64,000 nucleotides of DNA from Nautilus pompilius (taxonomy: Eukaryota; Mollusca; Cephalopoda; Nautilida; Nautilidae): NCBI GenBank assembly GCA_018389105.1, contig JACATO010002730.1, positions 843,501 through 907,500 of the forward strand, written 5' to 3'. The position numbers and the translations under genes are program-made. Shown in pieces: positions 16,214 to 61,490 of the stretch. The number at the start of each line of letters is the position of its first letter. Positions within the stretch are counted from its first letter, which is position 1. The notes beneath the pieces are model-generated. The model saw only the letters and a list, made by a program, of their open reading frames with translations. It was not told the DNA's origin and ran no database searches.

Positions 16214-16221
16214 CTGATTAA
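16214..16221. repeat. Target-site duplication, left copy (16.2 kb element)
   Basis: CTGATTAA directly before the left terminus, repeated exactly at 19711-19718. Confidence 0.93.
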
Positions 16222-16288
16222 TAGGGCAGGTCGATTTTCAACTTTTTTAAAAATCGGAATATGAGTAAGTATACAGTAGTTGCATCTA
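16222..16288 (+). repeat. Left terminal inverted repeat and subterminal motif
   Basis: Starts TAGGGCAGGTCGATTTTCAA. The subterminal copy of TGAGTAAG..CAGTAGTTGCAT lies at about 16261-16288. Its inverted partner is at the right end. Confidence 0.9.
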
Positions 16289-16377
16289 TTCAAGTAGTAC
16301 ACAATAAAAAAAAAATTAGGCTTTTAGGTTAATGTTCCGCTTGCGGATTTGCGATTAAAGTTTAATTGTGTTTCAAG

Positions 16378-16383
16378 TTTATT
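16378..16383 (-). terminator. Polyadenylation signal of the transposase gene
   Basis: AATAAA on the minus strand (TTTATT as given), about 80 bases beyond the stop codon and before the left terminus. Confidence 0.6.
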
Positions 16384-16462
16384 TCATATTCTATATTTTT
16401 TATCATAAGTTACATAACATTTGGAAAAGAGAACAATATATTTCCATAATGACCCAATAAAA

Positions 16463-16826
16463 CTAGGAATATAAATGATCATATGACTGAGAATAATGTC
16501 CTTTTGACATAAACACTGGACGCATTTTCCTGCTCAGCAGTTTCGTAAGGATAGATCTGTGTCGGGCCTCAAACCCATACACTGAATGAGAAGCTTCTGT
16601 CACTAACTTTACACTCCTTTCAACGCTCTGAGAATGACATGGTAGGTTTGGAATATCCGGCTTTGTGCTCTTGTTGATGAAGGTCTGGATTTCCTCATCA
16701 GAAAAGTGTTGTGTAGTTGGTGGCTCCATTGTACCAGCGTCAGGAAGGTCAATAAGCTCTGGCCAGGTGTCAGCGTCCCAGTTCACTGGAGGAATTTTCT
16801 TTTCCATTTCTTGGCTGCTGTTCATT
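16463..16826 (-). CDS. Transposase-like gene, exon 3 (C-terminus)
   Basis: Acceptor TTTATTCCAG|AATGAAC completes an Arg codon. The exon adds 120 residues: IPPVNWDADTWPELIDLP, EPPTTQHFSDEEIQTFI, then the strongly conserved-looking CHSQSVERSVKLVTEASHSV and a basic tail. Confidence 0.85.
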
Positions 16827-19149
16827 CTGGAATAAATAAAAAAAATGTATATTAATAATATCGGCCTAATAATCAAAACTATTTCCTTATTATTTTTGCT
16901 CTGAAAATTCGAAATATAAAAATTCCACAGACGTTGCCTAAGTATTCTGTTCAAATCTTAATATATTATTTTGAAAATAAAAATATCTAGAATAACAAAT
17001 TTTGCAAACAATACCTGCGTCTGAGAGTAAGAATTGTGTGAAGTCCAAGATTTCTGATCTGGTCATCATCATCTTTCACCATGGCGTAAAGGAAGTTTGC
17101 AGGTAGCAGGCAGAAAGCATTCCCCTGAATATTTTGTTTTACAATGCGTCTCACATCATCAAACTGAATCAGTTTCAAGTGGTTGATGGTAGAGAAAAGA
17201 ATGCGAGGTGAATCATGTAGTTTAGAGGACATCTTTAAGCTGAACCATGAGGGAGCATAAACCTTGACGATGTATTGGATTAATTTTGTCAGATTCTTGT
17301 TTGGACTGTTGTCTCGTGTGTATAGACAAAGAAGTCGTATAGCAAGTGTTAACCATCGTGCATGGTTGAGTGGACCTATTTTCCAGGCTGCCCATCTATC
17401 ATCTACTCTTCCCACTCCGATACCCTTACAATATTCATAGAGAAGCCTTTGATCATGACTGAGATCCTTCAGTACCTCATCTGGAATGTACTCATCAGTA
17501 ATTGGTGTTTGAACTGGCTCAAACTGTACTTGTGGTTCACCATGAATATCTTCTAAGCACCTTTTCCCAAGGGGTCCATTGAAGCTTCTTGGGCCAGTTG
17601 TTGTTCCATCCAGTTTTTTAAATAGGGCTCTTAGTGGAAGTTCATTTTGATGAAGGGCACAGCCAATTGTGTGCAGCTTCCTCCCAAGAATTTCTTCTAG
17701 CTTTACCACCAAACCACTCTTAGAACCAGTGTTTGTTGCTGTATTGTCAAGAAGAATAGCATGTATACTCTCAAGGCTGTCATATTCTTGAAGAACACTG
17801 AATGCTTCCTGAGCAAGAACATCGCCAGTAGCACCTACAACAGGTATTGTTCTGTGGGTCAAATAGGTGCCTGGAGATTTTCCATCTTCATATGTGAATG
17901 TGAGATGATGTTCTGTAGCAACACACTTTTTGAGAACATTTCCCCCTTCTTGCGCTTCTGTTTCCTTATATGTCAAGGTTTTATCATCAAGCTTTCCATC
18001 TACACCCATGCAAACGAGGTGTGTCTTCGTCTCTGACTCAACTTCTTCACTAATTACTCTTACTTTTGATTTAGCCCTGTCTAACTTACACTTGTCAATT
18101 AAGATTTGATTAATGTCAACCTCTGGCCTCAATAGGTGTTTGATGTCATAGAGCAAGGCATTACCAAGAGCTGCCCCAAGACTGGAGGAACATTCAGCTC
18201 TGACAAGCTCCATAGCATATCTGGGAAACTTGAGAAGGTTGTAGTCTCCTGAAGTCCTCCTGTTAGGCTGCCATTCATCTCCCTGAAAATATAAGAATCA
18301 CAAAAGATTAGATAGGGAATATTACTCTTCAGCAGATTAAGATAAAAACAGAAAAATGCATTAATTTTTGCATGAAGTAGTTGTGATTCGAAATACTAAC
18401 ATAGCATACAAGGTAATGATCGTTTAGTTCATATATACTAAGGCAAAGAAAAAAAAACACGAACCTCAGAATTTGATTGTTCAGGGATATCTGTAGGCTG
18501 TGTAGAAGGTCCTGCTAATTCAATGTCCTCCTGAGATAAGACATGTTGCTCTCTCAGTTTAGCTCTCCTATCTCTTTTGGCAGCAGATATGTCCACCGAA
18601 GACATCTGAAATGCTCCCTTGGGTCCTGTTTTTGAACGCTGATCTCGAAGATATGCTCTTTCTTCAATTGGCACCTTTGCAGCTGCTGGACAAACGCAGA
18701 TGATGTGTTCTTTTGTGCATTTGTCTTTTTTGCAATATATCCTAGAATCGTTGCAAGGCACAATTTCCAGAGGACAGGAACAGGCTGATATATCAAAGAG
18801 TTTGTCCAACTTAGAATCCAGATTACGCTTAGCATTTGCTTTAGCATGCTTGCGATTTATGTCTTTCACAGTCACAAAGAGATCTTTAACTTTTCTGTCA
18901 ATGGATTTTTCATGAATTAATGGTAATCTTGGATTCACAGACAACCAAATTGATTTCAAGTCCCTGGTAACATGCTGCACTTTAGCCCAAAAATCTGCAC
19001 AGGGATCGGCACATTCTAGATAATAATAATATTGAATCAATTGTCTGTAGGTGCTGGGATCTGTGAGCACTAAATCACAAGGACCACCGCCATATTTCTC
19101 TTCACTTTTCTTTCTTTCTTGTTAGCGGCGTTGTTTTCACTTTCGGCAT
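16463..19149 (-). CDS. Three-exon transposase-like protein, about 771 aa, one frameshift
   Basis: Coding gene of the 16.2-19.7 kb element, taken to be its transposase. Exons, in minus-strand order, are 19149-18465, 18282-17015 and 16826-16463, with GT-AG introns of 182 and 188 bp. Phases match exactly (0, then 2), which supports the splicing. The start is the only ATG near the expected N-terminus (MPKVKTTPLTRKKEK). One base of frame is lost at a run of A about 43 nt in, after which the frame is open for some 757 codons to the stop. Seen: a Cys/His cluster at about residues 123-153; candidate acidic residues in GVDGKLDDKT (about 323) and LLDNTATNTG (about 407); TIGCALHQNELPLRALF just after; NHARWLTLAIRLLCLYTR; and a C-terminal CHSQSVERSVKLVTEASHSV. 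I recognise the family as a recurrent uncharacterised protein of invertebrate genomes; the enzyme role is inferred from its position inside TIRs. Confidence 0.88.
17015..18282 (-). CDS. Transposase-like gene, exon 2 (core)
   Basis: Acceptor TTTTCAG|GGAGAT. The exon reads straight into GDEWQPNRRTSGDYNLLKFP and on through the presumed catalytic core with no stop for 422 codons. It ends at CGCAG|GTATTG in phase 2. Confidence 0.88.
18465..19149 (-). CDS. Transposase-like gene, exon 1
   Basis: Carries the start ATG (19149), the single frameshift at about 19107, a basic region (VKDINRKHAKANAKRN) and the Cys/His cluster: two Cys one residue apart, then Cys at +7, +14 and +19, a His at +23 and two more Cys at +26 and +28 (counting from the second Cys). 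This is a plausible zinc-binding DNA-recognition unit. It ends at a donor GAG|GTTCGT in phase 0. Confidence 0.8.
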
Positions 19150-19647
19150 TTTTTCAAAAATATCTCAGACAACCTTAAATGTAATTAAATTCAATATTAA
19201 AATCTGATATATAAATTAATGATGTTACAAACTCTTGTCTTCAGCTTGTAATATACTCATAATCCTCCCCCCTTTTTCCGATGATAATAATAGAAACACT
19301 CACTAAAATAATTATTATTACAGAGTAAGTTACTATGCAAAACACGGCCTCGCAATGACACTATAAGCAAGATTCCAGTCCGCCGTCGGCGCAAGGCAAT
19401 ACACCGTATATTTTCTAAAATAAACACAGAGAACCGTCCTTAAACTATAAATATATATATATAATAGGGGGCTGGACACGCAGTGGTCCGTAACATTGAC
19501 TTTTAAAGCATAGCAAGACAAGGACAGTTGAAAAAAAATGGTTACATGCACCGAAAACACTAGTGAAAAAGTAAAATTAAACAGTTATTTCAAAATCCGC
19601 AAAAAGATATTCAAGTTAAACTCATATATTTGTGATTTTAACGTATT

Positions 19648-19710
19648 ATACATGGAAATGCAACTACTGATTGCTTACTCACACTCCTGTGTCAACATCG
19701 ACCTGCCCTA
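19648..19710 (-). repeat. Right terminal inverted repeat and subterminal motif
   Basis: Read on the minus strand it begins TAGGGCAGGTCGATGTTGAC and carries TGAGTAAG..CAGTAGTTGCAT further in, matching the left end. Confidence 0.9.
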
Positions 19711-19718
19711 CTGATTAA
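19711..19718. repeat. Target-site duplication, right copy (16.2 kb element)
   Basis: CTGATTAA, identical to 16214-16221. Confidence 0.93.
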
Positions 19719-33454: not shown

Positions 33455-35119
33455 ATGTCAAGACAGTGTAGAAATCCTCCTGATGTGTTTTGTATATATC
33501 TGTGAACAATTTATTGTGAAACCTCAAAAACGTATAATAACACCAGAGATCAAGAACATTCATAAGCTATACTTTAACTGACCTCTTGGAGATCAGGACA
33601 AGTTATGGGCACCACATTTTATCTGCTCAGCTTGCTCAAATGGCTTACGTGACTGGTTCAATAAGAGGAAGAAATCCATGCCTTTTGCAATTCCAATAAT
33701 ATGGAGGGAGCAGAAAGACCATTTTAATGACTGTTGTTTTTGCAAAGTAAATGTCACAGGATTTTCTATGAAGAATAAACACAAAATTGTGTATCCCAAT
33801 TTGGATTCTGCAATGAGACCTGTGCCTCACAATAGAAGTCTGCCAATTCCAGTTCCACCAGATGATGGTATTGAAACATCAGATGATGATGCTGACTGTC
33901 ACGATAGAGCTGCTGACGAAGATTACGTGGCTGATGACGATAGCTTTGAACCTCAGAAATTTTTCCAAGCTGAACTGAATGACCTTGTCAGAGACCCATC
34001 CCTCTCAAAAGATAAAGCAGAACTGTTGGGATCAAGACTGAAGGAGAAGTATCTGCTAGAGCACGGTGTTCGTATAACTTATTTTCGGCAGAGAAATGTA
34101 GTTCTACAAACGTGTTTTTCTGTTGAAGGCCCGCTTTGCTTTTGCAGTAACATCGATGGACTTTTCGAATGTTATCACAAAATCATTATCCTGCAGAGTG
34201 GCGTTTGTTTATTGACTCTTCAAAACGAAGTTTAAAAGCTGTACTTCACCATAATGGTAATTTGAAGCCCTCCATTCCTATTGTACAATCCGTTCATCTT
34301 CATGAAATATGAGAATATGGAATTACTTCATGCATGCAATTGCCTATGAAAGAAAACTCAGAAAAATATGTGGAGATTTAAAATTCATTGAATGTTAATG
34401 TTAATGGGAATGCAGTCAGGTTTCACAAAATACTGTTGTTTCTTGTGTCTATGGGATAGTCGGGCAACTGACAGATATTATTCGGAATCAAACTGGCAAA
34501 AACATCATACCAGCCAGGACTTTCTAGCGTCATGAATACACCTCTTGTAGATCCATGTCATGTCCTATTGCCTACTTTGCACATAAAGCTTGGACTGATG
34601 AAACAGTTTGTAAAGACACTAGGGAAGAGAAATGCCAGAGGGTTTGAGTATATTGTAAAAATGTTTCCAAAAATCACACAGGCAAAGTTGAAAGAGGGTA
34701 TCTTTGTCGGACCCCAAATTAGAGAAGTATTCAAAGATGTCAACTTCAAGACAACACTGAATGAACTGGAACTGCCTGCCTGGAATGCTTTCATTTAGAT
34801 CTGTGAGAATTTCTTAGGCAACAAGAAGACAATGGACTACAAGGATGACATCAAGAATCTTCTGAAATGTTACTCAGCAATGGGTTGTCGCATGTCACTG
34901 AAAGTTCACTTCTTGGACACCCATCTGGATTTCTTCGCAGATAACCTTGGAGCAGTGTCTGATGAACATGGTGAAAGATTTTACCAGGACATTAGTGCTA
35001 TGGAGAAACGGTACCAAGGCTTCTGGAATGACAGTATGCTGGCTGACTACTGCTGTACACTTTACCGTGATCAACCAGATCAGGAACACCGCAGGAAATC
35101 GAAATCACAATGTTTCTAA
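33455..35119 (+). pseudogene. Transposase-like pseudogene of an uncharacterised invertebrate family
   Basis: This is a broken copy of a protein family common as 'uncharacterized protein' in insects and molluscs. The start ATG at 33455 follows a splice-acceptor-like TGTTTTACAG; residues MSRQCRNPPDVF lead into a Cys-containing N-terminal block. Seen further on: FICSACSNGLRDW and MPFAIPIIWREQKDH with DCCFCKVNVTGF, together a likely zinc-binding region; an acidic linker (DDDADCHDRAADEDYVADDD); EWRLFIDSSKRSLKAVLHHN (34197-34257); GFTKYCCFLCLWDSRA (about 34420-34467); LLPTLHIKLGLMKQFVK and KEGIFVGPQIREVF; and HFLDTHLDFFADNLGAVSDE followed by HGERFYQDI and MEKRYQG. The conserved D, H and E positions suit a DDE-type nuclease, but that is inference. 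There are frame changes near 33580, 34195 and 34500 and an in-frame TAG at 34796. Confidence 0.85.
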
Positions 35120-41526: not shown

Positions 41527-42541
41527 CTAGTAGTGGGTGGCGTATCCGTGATTTTCGATCACTAGTCGACAACAACGACGGGGCATGGAGTCGACCAAAC
41601 AAAGGCAGTCGGAATTGATAATTTCCTGCCAGCTTTTCTCGACGGCCTGCCAGAATTAGTCTTGGATAAGATTCTTGTGTTTGTCCACCTTGGCCTTCAG
41701 CTGCTTCCAGGTATTTTCAATTGGGTGGAGATAGGACTCTGGAGCGGCCAGTACAGTACATCCATTCCTAGTTGGGTGGTGAGGGAAATGAAGACTCTGG
41801 CGATGTGAATCGGGGCATTGTCTTGCTGGAAGATGGCGATGACTAGCATGTTCTCGTCGATGTAGTCCACGACGACATCCATCAGTAAATTGCAGTAGGT
41901 CTGGGCGGTCGCTCTGCCACTGATCAATTTGAGAGGGCCTGGTCCCGCCGTACTCATACACCCGCAAACCATCAACGATCCTCCTCCTGCCTGTACCATC
42001 TGTCGGCTGCACCTTATATTGTATTTTTCGCCATGTTAACGTCGAACAAATACTCGGCCAGCACTGTTAATGCAGATGATTATCGTTTCGTCGGAAAAGA
42101 GAACTCTAGCCCATTGAACTTTGGTCCAGTTTTTGTGCGCTTTAGCCAATGCTATGCGGATGCGCCTGTTCTTGTTGCTGATCAATGGGTTTTTCTGGGC
42201 GATTCGTCCAAAGAGATTCCCCTCGCATAGACGACGTTTAATAGTGCAACTGGAGTCATTCACTCCACTCTGGGAGGCTCGAATGTCCGTCGATGTCAGG
42301 AAACGATTGGCCCTGGATTTTTGTGACAATTGAGTCGATCCATTTTGTTGTCACATTTTCTCGGTCTTCCGATTCACATTTTTGGTTTCGTATTTCCGGT
42401 CTTCCTGTACTGCTTCAGAATGCGGTTTGAAGTGCATTTCGTGCAAATGACTCGATCGGCTATCTCCCGACAAGACAGATTTTCTTGGTGGTGCTCAACT
42501 ATCAAGTCTCTGATTTCAGACGACGTTGTCTTGCCAGGCAT
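41527..42541 (-). pseudogene. Tc1-type DD34E transposase pseudogene, copy A
   Basis: Full-length but broken Tc1 transposase, about 338 codons as in the family. The ATG at 42541 reads MPGKTTSSEIRDLIVEHHQE, the N-terminal paired-like helix-turn-helix. Seen after it: RANRFLTSTDIRASQSGV and CTIKRRLCEGNLFGRIAQKN (linker and second helix-turn-helix); WARVLFSDET with the first catalytic Asp; GGGSLMVCGCM; FQQDNAPIHIAR with the second Asp; WPLQSP, then NPIENTWKQLKAKV in another frame with the Glu; and a terminal SMPRRCCRLVIENHGYATHY before the TAG at 41527. An in-frame stop after KPKM and several shifts inactivate it. Confidence 0.93.
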
Positions 42542-50659: not shown

Positions 50660-52824
50660 ATTGCATCTTCTCTCTTTGTCTTTTTTTCATTATTCATTCG
50701 TTCTTTCTTTTTCTTTTTAGTATTTCTGATCCTCCGTGATTACTTCAGTTTCTCTGTCTCTAGCTTATTCCCTTTGCCTTTCCTTCTTTGTTTCTTTGTC
50801 CTTCTAGCTTTCTCTCTGTCTCTGTCGGTCTTTATCTGTCTGTTTTTTTCTGTCCTCTTTTTCTCTCTTTCTTGATATCTCTATTTTCCGTTAATCCTTT
50901 AGTCTCTTTCTTTGTCACCTTCTCTCTCTCTCTGCCGTTTTGTTTATGTCGGTCTATCTGTCTTTAGGTTTATTTCTCTGCTTCTCTGCTGTCTGTCTAT
51001 TTCCGTCTGTTTCTAACTATTTTGTCACTGTCTGTTATTATCTGTCCATCTCTGTTGTTTCTACACCTTTGTCTCTGTTTCTGTCAATATCTTCTCAATT
51101 TGTGCCTCGGACTTTATCACCTTCTTTGTTTGTTTCTAACTGTTTCCGCACGTATTTGTCTTTCTATTTGTCTGTCTTAGTCTCTGTCTCCGTTTTTCTA
51201 AGTCTTTCACTCCTTGACTATTATCTGTCTGTTTCTGTATGTCTTTTCCCTGTTTCTGACTCTATTTATCTCTGTCTCTATCCCTGTTTTTGTCTTCCAC
51301 TGGACTTCACCTTGCTTTTGTTTTTTTCTTGTCTCTGTGACTCCGTCTTTCTTTGTCTCCGGTTCTGAATATATCTTTGATTGTTTATGTATTTGTTTCT
51401 ATTTCTGCTTTTGTATGCCTCTGATTTTTATATCTGTATCTTTGTATGTCTACATTTGGCTCAGTCTTTCCCTATTTCTGTTTATTATGTCTCTTTCACT
51501 TTTTTGTCTTTGACTCCGTTTGTCCGTGTCTGTTTATGCATGTTTCTTCTCTGTCTGTCAATGTCTCTGTCTCTTTCTTGTTTCTCTCTGTTTCAGTCTG
51601 CCTCATTATGTTTCAGTTTTTATTTATGACCACCTGTTTCTTTCTGTCTCTGTCTCTGTATCTTTGTTTGATTCTGTCTTTCAATCTGCATCAGTTTGTT
51701 TCCTATTTACTTTGTCTCGTCTGTATGTTTTTTTTTGTTAATTTTTTGTCTGCTTATGTATGTCTCTCTTCCATCTCTGTCTGTTAATTTTCAATCCTTT
51801 TCTATTAATGTATGTTTAAGTATTCTGTTTCTTTATCAGTTTGTTTAAATCTAGCTCTGTATGTGGTTCTCTGTCTCTGTTTCACTCCTTGCATTTATGT
51901 AATTTTGCACTGTTTTACTTTATTTTTCTCTTTCTATCCTTTTCTGTCTCCTTATGGTTAGCACTTTTTTTTTGTCTCTTCTTTCTCTGCATTTGCTTGT
52001 CTCTGTATCTTTTAACGTTTTTTTGTCTTTCTCTATTTTCCTCTTTGTCCGATTGCCTTTGTCTATCTCTACCTCATTATGTAATTGTCTCTTATCTTTT
52101 TCTAATTACTTCCCATTTCTGCCTGCCTTTGTCTTTATCTCTTTGTTTGTTTCTTCGTTTCTCTAGAGTTTTGGTATCATCGTTTTTTTCTGGTGTCTGT
52201 CTTTGCCTAATGCCTTGCCTTTCTTTCCGTCTGCCTCTTTTTTTGTCACTGCCTGTGATTTAATCTGACTCAGCTTGTTTTTGTGCTGCTTATTTATGTT
52301 TATTTCTCTGTTTATGTTTTTTGTCGCTGACTTTTTTCTCTGGCTGTATTTTTGTTTTTCTATCTCTTTTCCTGTCTTTGTTCTTGTTTCTGTTTCTCCC
52401 CTGACTCTCTTTCTTTTTTTCTTCTATCATTGGGTTTCTGCATCTTTTCAGTTCACATTTTTGTCTTTAAGTCTGATTTCTTTTCTGTCACTGTCTTTGA
52501 CTTTCTTTCTGTCTTTTCCTGCTTAAGTATATCCCTATTTCAGTTTTGGTCTGCCTCTTTCACTGTTTTGTATCATTTCCTGTCTTTGTTTCCATCTTTG
52601 CGTCTGTCTCTTTTATGTCTCCCTCCTTTTGTCTGTTTTTTTTTTTCAATTCTGCCCATATTTTTCTTTCTGTCTCTCTTCCTGTCTTAGTCTTTTGTGT
52701 TTTTTGTTTCACTGTTTTTTTTTTAATTAATTTTTATTTATGTCAGCTTCTGTGTGGTTCTGTCTGTCTTTGTCTATTTATGTAAGTCTCTGGTTCCAGG
52801 TCTGACTCTATATCTCTGTTTATT

Positions 52825-59800: not shown

Positions 59801-61305
59801 GAAAACTGGAATTTGATGGTTAATTCTGTTTGCAAAGAAACACAGGGAGTGAATCAGTCGTATATGAAAATGACTTTAGAATAAAAACATCCAGAAAAGG
59901 AAAAAAAAAATAGAAACTGCATTAACAAAAGCAGATAGTAATAAAATAAAAAATAAAAGATTTTATAATATTTTTGCAAGCATAGCATTAGTTACAGGTA
60001 TAGATCAGTCTATTATGGTGATTTTAACGTATTTATTTTAACATTATTATAGATTAATTATCAATATTATATTAGCGATAATGAAGTGTTTTAATGATTC
60101 AAATATAAGCAAAATTATTGGTTCAAACAAGGTCTGCTTTTGCTATATTTCAGAGTTTTAGCTGTAAGGAATAATTTTTGGCTATAAAATGGGGGAAAAA
60201 AGCTTTCTTTTTCTTAAGCATGCTCTAGCTTTGTATATATTTCTCTTTTAAATAGTGTTTTTACTAAAAAATAAATCAGTGAACATAAACTGGAAATTTA
60301 ATGGATACATTTATGTCCAATTTAGTCAGCATGTTTTGTGTTAAGATTATGCCTTTAAGAAAAGCTAGAGTTCTTTTTGTCACGTGACATCTTTTTTGGT
60401 GTGTGGATTAAAGGTCAGTATCAGCACTAACATCGTAGTTCATGTTTTTAAAAAAATTCACTTCTTGAATAGTTTCAGACTTATTAAAGGTCAAATCCTG
60501 GATCAAATAAACATAATTCTGACAAGATTGTGCTTTCTGAAACAACTTATTTCAGCTAGCAAACAGTTATTATAGACAGAATAGCTATTGTAGAATAAAC
60601 AGTTCTATTGGTTGTTTACTCTTAGCGCTTTTCCACTAGAGTACATATCACAAACAGATAAAGGGTTTAACTTCATAGCTATTTCTTATCTAAAGCAACC
60701 TCATAAGTAGAAGCATTTTATATTACTTATGGTACATTAACATTTGACTAAATACCTTTTCCATTTTCTCCCTTTTTCTCTGATTAATTTAGAAAATATG
60801 CTAACTAATTTTAATGAAATGACCGTCAAATGTTTTATTCATTCCTTTAATTCCCGTTTACGGATTCAGAGGAGTCTTAATCTAAAAGGTCTTTTTATCG
60901 ATTTATATTTAGACTTTGAAGTACTCACTATACGTTAAGACAAGTGAATTTTTCTATCAGATTTCTTGTTTATTACATTAGTGCCAGATCCTTTTGTTCA
61001 AACTATTTTTTTTCCTCGCGAGAAGATTCAATGAGAAAAGTTTGTCTGTATGTATTCTGTAGGAGATTTCCGAACGTGCTTATTTGGATTTTATCTGAGC
61101 GTGTGTCGCTGTCTTTTAGAAAGATTAATTTTGAAATTTTTAGTTATATTAACAAATGGAAAGAATTATATATATTTCCTTGCTATAAAGACTTGTTTAA
61201 ATGTATTTTCTTGTATTCAAAATCTTAACAGTGCGCATTTGCAAAAAATAATACAACTAAGCAAGCTATTGTTTAAAACACATTTCAGTATACTTTTTAG
61301 TCAAC
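56831..61305. other. Non-coding AT-rich spacer
   Basis: About 4.5 kb with no gene or element recognised. Open frames of 60-94 codons (for example 57551-57778 minus, 58853-59062 minus, 60944-61228 plus) show no motif. Confidence 0.5.

Positions 61306-61490
<185 letters not shown>

Follow-up and report, generated by a model that had tools for sequence, protein, structure and literature searches.

Within the 64,000-nucleotide stretch of Nautilus pompilius DNA analyzed here (hereinafter, the window), a 3489-bp element occupies positions 16222-19710 and is bounded by perfect 14-bp inverted ends. The two ends are the only matches to the terminal sequence in the window when up to two mismatches are allowed, with 0.06 matches expected, and the element is immediately flanked by an exact 8-bp duplication. 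An earlier note on this DNA had described both the perfect ends and the exact duplication, and both were confirmed in the window sequence. Inside the terminal repeats, there is a second inverted repeat of 30 bp, and the minus strand of the interior carries a gene with three exons that are joined in phase by GT-AG introns. The features, with window coordinates, are as follows.

16214-16221, no strand: left copy of the duplication CTGATTAA
16222-16235, plus strand: left terminal inverted repeat TAGGGCAGGTCGAT (genome-wide exact matches to TAGGGCAGGTCGATNTT: 86 + 85)
16256-16285, no strand: left arm of the inner (subterminal) inverted repeat, 83% complementary to 19658-19687
16463-16826, minus strand: exon 3, C-terminal part, with the putative catalytic glutamate E719 (16619-16621) in SQSVERSVKLV
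16827-17014, minus strand: intron 2 (GT-AG)
17015-18282, minus strand: exon 2, predicted catalytic core, with D322 (17998-18000), D406 (17746-17748), C435 (17659-17661), H438 (17650-17652) and R536-W537 (17353-17358); positions derived from the exon borders, roles putative
18283-18464, minus strand: intron 1 (GT-AG)
18465-19149, minus strand: exon 1, N-terminal part, with an ATG at 19149 and a stop 15 codons on; main frame open from 19121
18687-18791, minus strand: putative zinc-binding Cys/His cluster (C-x-C ... H-x2-C-x-C) at the expected site of a BED finger
19658-19687, no strand: right arm of the inner inverted repeat
19697-19710, minus strand: right terminal inverted repeat TAGGGCAGGTCGAT
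19711-19718, no strand: right copy of the duplication CTGATTAA

In the window copy, the main frame of exon 1, which is open from 19121, joins the downstream exons to give 762 amino acids, and the ATG at 19149 lies in a different frame. Exon 1 of this copy consists of 685 bases, as against 681 in most copies, so that the ATG frame stops after 15 codons. One identical protein of 770 amino acids is encoded by 9 of the 39 copies of the element that were compared (see below); 26 of the 39 encode more than 700 amino acids, and GT and AG are present at both introns in all of them. Many of the differences between copies are small insertions or deletions that could be either real or assembly errors. 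Of the three-exon gene of about 771 codons that had been proposed from the window alone, the exons and the GT-AG joins stand, and the intact copies encode 770 amino acids, but the window copy itself is frame-broken. Its own protein is probably unable to move this copy, which could nevertheless be mobilized by the protein of the intact copies.

Several other open frames were observed in the window. The frame at 41656-42066 on the minus strand has an end that we take to resemble the DDE end of a Tc1/mariner-type transposase. A 217-aa open frame with cysteine pairs at 33582-34235 on the plus strand looks uncharacterized and is possibly repeat-borne, and the long low-complexity open frames at 50895-52263 and 61035-61487 on the plus strand are apparently derived from simple repeats.

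Copies in the genome and target sites

When the same assembly (727.6 Mb in 2558 contigs) was searched with the whole element and 40 of 93 candidates were scored, at least 42 matches were obtained; 40 of these, including the window copy, are near full-length at 98-100% identity, and one further copy was matched in two pieces. Copy analysis was performed on 38 near-complete copies together with the window copy, with the split matches L046 and L047 left out. These 39 copies carry 0 to 11 substitutions each relative to the majority sequence (median, 5; mean, 5.3, that is, 0.15%). The exact end pattern TAGGGCAGGTCGATNTT is found 171 times in the assembly (86 + 85), compared with none for the reversed control pattern. 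Among the 100 end matches listed (of the 171), 94 form 47 pairs, of which 45 span 3400-3560 bp, and six are unpaired; these 100 include no shortened derivative that retains the two exact ends. The element has thus been amplified recently, as a whole and between constant ends. Searching the genome with exon 2 produced at least 104 matches (99 of 363 candidates scored), which include older copies at 81-97% identity, many of them partial or interrupted by stops; L059, which had been taken for a distant relative at 36% identity, turned out to belong to the window family itself, as a decayed copy. The family appears to be long-resident in this genome, with one recent burst.

Target sites were compared for 37 copies with readable ends, a set that excludes L046, L047 and the two copies at L035. 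An exact 8-bp duplication flanks 28 of the 37 copies, with 22 distinct sequences represented, whereas shuffling the right flanks among the copies (2000 permutations) gave a mean of 2.2 and a maximum of 9 exact pairs. The exact duplications have T at position 2 in 27 of 28 cases and A at position 7 in 26; the complete pattern nTnnnnAn is present in 25 of the 28, compared with 11.5% in the flanks (p 7e-21), and in 18 of 21 once ATATATAT is excluded. The element, then, makes 8-bp target duplications and prefers nTnnnnAn targets. The target preference of Hermes is given as 5'-nTnnnnAn-3' in the available text of PMC10368747.

In the remaining nine copies, the flanks do not match: L010 and L011 have one common pair, those of L014, L021 and L038 are one base off, and those of L023, L030, L034 and L037 differ by more than one base. 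L010 and L011 (G000:C2124) are in opposite orientation, approximately 29 kb apart, with identical mismatched flanks, which suggests that an inverted duplication, not a pair of insertions, gave rise to them. At L035 (G000:C2417:24461-32000), two abutting copies of the element meet at their left ends, both of which are altered. Given this common mismatched flank pair and these abutting copies, a few copies seem to have arisen by rearrangement. The same loci could be cited in favor of a host gene or a segmental repeat that merely resembles a transposon, but this interpretation retains next to no probability in view of the 22 distinct sequences among the 28 exact duplications and of the same two ends that bound all 47 listed pairs. 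The genome search with the ends had been recommended in the earlier note, which named a lack of other copies, or fixed loci devoid of terminal repeats, as the results that would speak against a mobile element; neither result was obtained, given the 171 end matches, their pairing and the distinct duplications.

Domain, structure and literature searches

Neither the window protein nor the 770-aa protein matches any Pfam family at E values up to 10, and there is, in particular, no Pfam match to a BED finger in the 770-aa protein; this protein also has no matches in NCBIfam. Pfam searches with its relatives gave three matches, all of them under the curated cut-offs (HEAT_RRP12_N, 0.082; DUF5633, 0.045; CcdA, 0.26). 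P elements and Zisupton/KDZ elements have duplications of similar length, so that one of these other superfamilies with 8-bp duplications might be considered as the source; such an assignment is highly improbable given that the 770-aa protein lacks any Pfam match and that the target pattern and the ends are hAT-like. Comparison with PDB sequences detected nothing relevant (nitrilases, with E values from 0.13 upward, and an M protein at E 9.8), and Hermes was not found when a profile of the family was compared with the same database. In control searches, the hAT L054 of the same genome matched PF05699 and DUF4371 in Pfam, and two canonical hATs do find Hermes among the PDB sequences, chiefly via the C-terminal domain. 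A single-sequence AlphaFold2 model of exon 2 has a pLDDT of 37.1, which is too poor for the fold to be read.

No description of the element was found in the literature, with Repbase and Dfam outside the coverage of the search; a Repbase name for it may exist. A coral MITE paper in which TAGGG occurs (PMC2872659) was considered and rejected, since its available text is concerned with TTAA elements. A PF05699 profile search of the genome returned at least 150 matches (150 of 3065 candidates scored), which implies many other hAT elements in the same genome.

Related families in the same genome

The exon-2 search also revealed a second family, with two loci at 49% identity in the core. In this family, the element at L049 measures 2941 bp and has the ends TAGGGTAGGTTGATTT and TAGGGTAAGTTGATTT and the exact duplication GTGTGTAT; it has no intron at either position, although its reading frame is interrupted by stops and shifted once. 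A third family, L060-L066, was reached via L058, a locus at 29% identity around which no element ends were found. The proteins of the third family are 29-32% identical to the 770-aa protein; the end TAGGGTACAC is present at six of the seven loci, and L064, the sole locus with both ends in the stretch examined, has the exact duplication TTATTCTT. TAGGG ends combined with an exact 8-bp duplication are therefore found in both the second and the third family, at one locus each with both ends.

The families have in common a cluster of cysteines in the N-terminal part, with [IV]P-x2-[ED] and QR after it, as well as the D of a DG[KR] block, the D of a DNT/DGT/DST block, C-x2-H and RW. The cysteine cluster of the 770-aa protein is also present in L049, L058 and L062, and a VER motif near the C-terminus of the third family was read in the frames of L060, L062, L063 and L064. 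The 770-aa protein presumably belongs to a family of uncharacterized proteins of invertebrates. Scans of IMG/VR and of prokaryote genomes that were seeded by short peptide patterns confirmed no relatives.

Similarities to and differences from hAT transposons

The terminal inverted repeats of hAT elements are described as 10-25 bp long and starting with [T/C]A[A/G]NG (available text of PMC6027215 and PMC3942097), and the 14-bp repeat of the present element, with its TAGGG start, fits this description. The 770-aa protein contains D322, D406, C435, H438, R536-W537 and E719, which were assigned by eye, in the order typical of hAT. The accessible part of PMC6027215 lists D180, D248, R318, W319 and E572 as the essential residues of Hermes and C, H, F/W, S and R as further conserved residues of plant hATs. 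Judged by the plant-hAT criterion as given there (PMC6027215), the residues after E719 deviate, with V/I at +3 and K at +4 instead of F/W and S, and with R at +19 rather than +14. The spacings between the residues are 84/29/98/182, compared with 66/34/59/255 in Ac.

HHalign comparison with L054 places D322, D406, C435 and H438 on D342, D411, C439 and H442, respectively (P 0.021). With L056, a canonical hAT that is also present in this genome and that we take to be ZBED5/Buster-like, D406, C435 and H438 are placed on D265, C293 and H296, and the wording C-x2-H-Q and RWL is common to both proteins; L056, however, reaches Hermes in the PDB via its C-terminal domain, and the window family does not. 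In the alignment with a five-sequence hAT profile, the columns opposite D406 and H438 contain D and H, respectively, in four of the five rows, and the column opposite C435 contains C in two of the five; no such register was obtained with L050, L055 or L057 individually. Among 60 column shuffles in each case, a score as good as that of the real alignment was reached once for L054, 22 times for L056 and twice for the five-sequence profile, and for the latter, the reversed alignment scored 19.1 versus 19.5 for the real one. When the controls were aligned to other hATs, L056 and L050 were linked via the C-terminal domain only, and L054 over most of its length.

Overall, the element resembles the hAT superfamily (Hermes, Ac, hobo) in its 8-bp nTnnnnAn duplications, short [T/C]A[A/G]NG terminal repeats, element size and the order of D, D, C-x2-H, RW and E, the last being assigned by eye and accompanied by weak profile scores. 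It differs in that PF05699 is not detected, by a sequence test that a diverged domain could evade; in that a cysteine cluster is found in place of a detectable BED finger; in the replacement of F/W-S after the catalytic glutamate by V/I-K; and in the longer distance from H to RW. Because the DNA features and the residue order fit hAT whereas the sequence tests for PF05699 and BED fail, we file the element as a hAT-like variant.

A separate superfamily of RNase-H-fold transposases, either a sister group to hAT or convergent with it in the TAGGG ends, the 8-bp duplications and the D-D-E/C-x2-H arrangement, would be compatible with the lack of hAT domain matches in Pfam, NCBIfam and PDB sequences, with the weak profile scores, one of which is no better than the reversed control, and with the replacement of the BED finger by a cysteine cluster. 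It seems unlikely, nevertheless, because the nTnnnnAn targets, the [T/C]A[A/G]NG ends and the ordered D, D, C-x2-H, RW and E all agree with hAT, and the alignments with L054 and L056 are in register.

By its ends, the closest named group is hATm, from which the element is set apart by description, not by sequence; the available text of PMC6004678 reports conserved TAGGGTG termini, 8- or 9-bp duplications and divergence from Ac, Buster and Tip. Likened to this group by description only, the element has in common with it the TAGGG ends and 8-bp duplications, and differs in its termini, TAGGGTG / CACCCTA being reported for hATm as opposed to TAGGGCAGG here and TAGGGTAGG and TAGGGTACAC in the second and third families, respectively. 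These characters of hATm make it quite plausible, at only slightly less than even odds, that Repbase already has a name for the hAT group (hATm, hATw or another) to which the element would belong as a new member, which would be compatible with the assignment to the hAT lineage. Against such membership are the PF05699 domain, which the described hATm carries (PMC6004678, available text) and which is undetected here, and the starts TAGGGCA of the element and TAGGGTA of its relatives, compared with TAGGGTG.

Identity and proposed mechanism

Taken together, these results place the element among the cut-and-paste DNA transposons, in a branch of the hAT lineage that is very divergent in sequence, a conclusion to which we assign a probability of about 0.8. 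That the element works like a hAT is well supported, and the alternative left in the earlier note, hAT or a relative, is favored by the nTnnnnAn preference together with the D, D, C-x2-H, RW and E residues. A more specific proposal can be offered only tentatively, with the odds somewhat against it: the element would represent a deeply diverging branch, either within hAT or beside it, that has been active recently, with a conserved cysteine cluster at the BED site and a dimerization region diverged past recognition, and it would provide a mobile-element identity for widespread uncharacterized animal proteins that we assume to be relatives.

We infer that the 770-aa protein acts as the transposase. 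The cysteine cluster in its N-terminal part would recognize the terminal and inner inverted repeats, and D322, D406 and E719 would form an RNase-H-like active site, with C435/H438 and R536-W537 placed as in hAT enzymes. Such an active site would cut at the TAGGG ends and insert them into target DNA at positions staggered by 8 bp, and the window copy would depend on the protein of intact copies for its movement.

With a putative transposase that Pfam does not cover, this very young element would allow related uncharacterized proteins to be relabeled as transposases. As a possibly active hAT-like system, the element is itself a candidate for study, and it would illustrate the extent of divergence that a hAT-type enzyme tolerates without losing its target preference.
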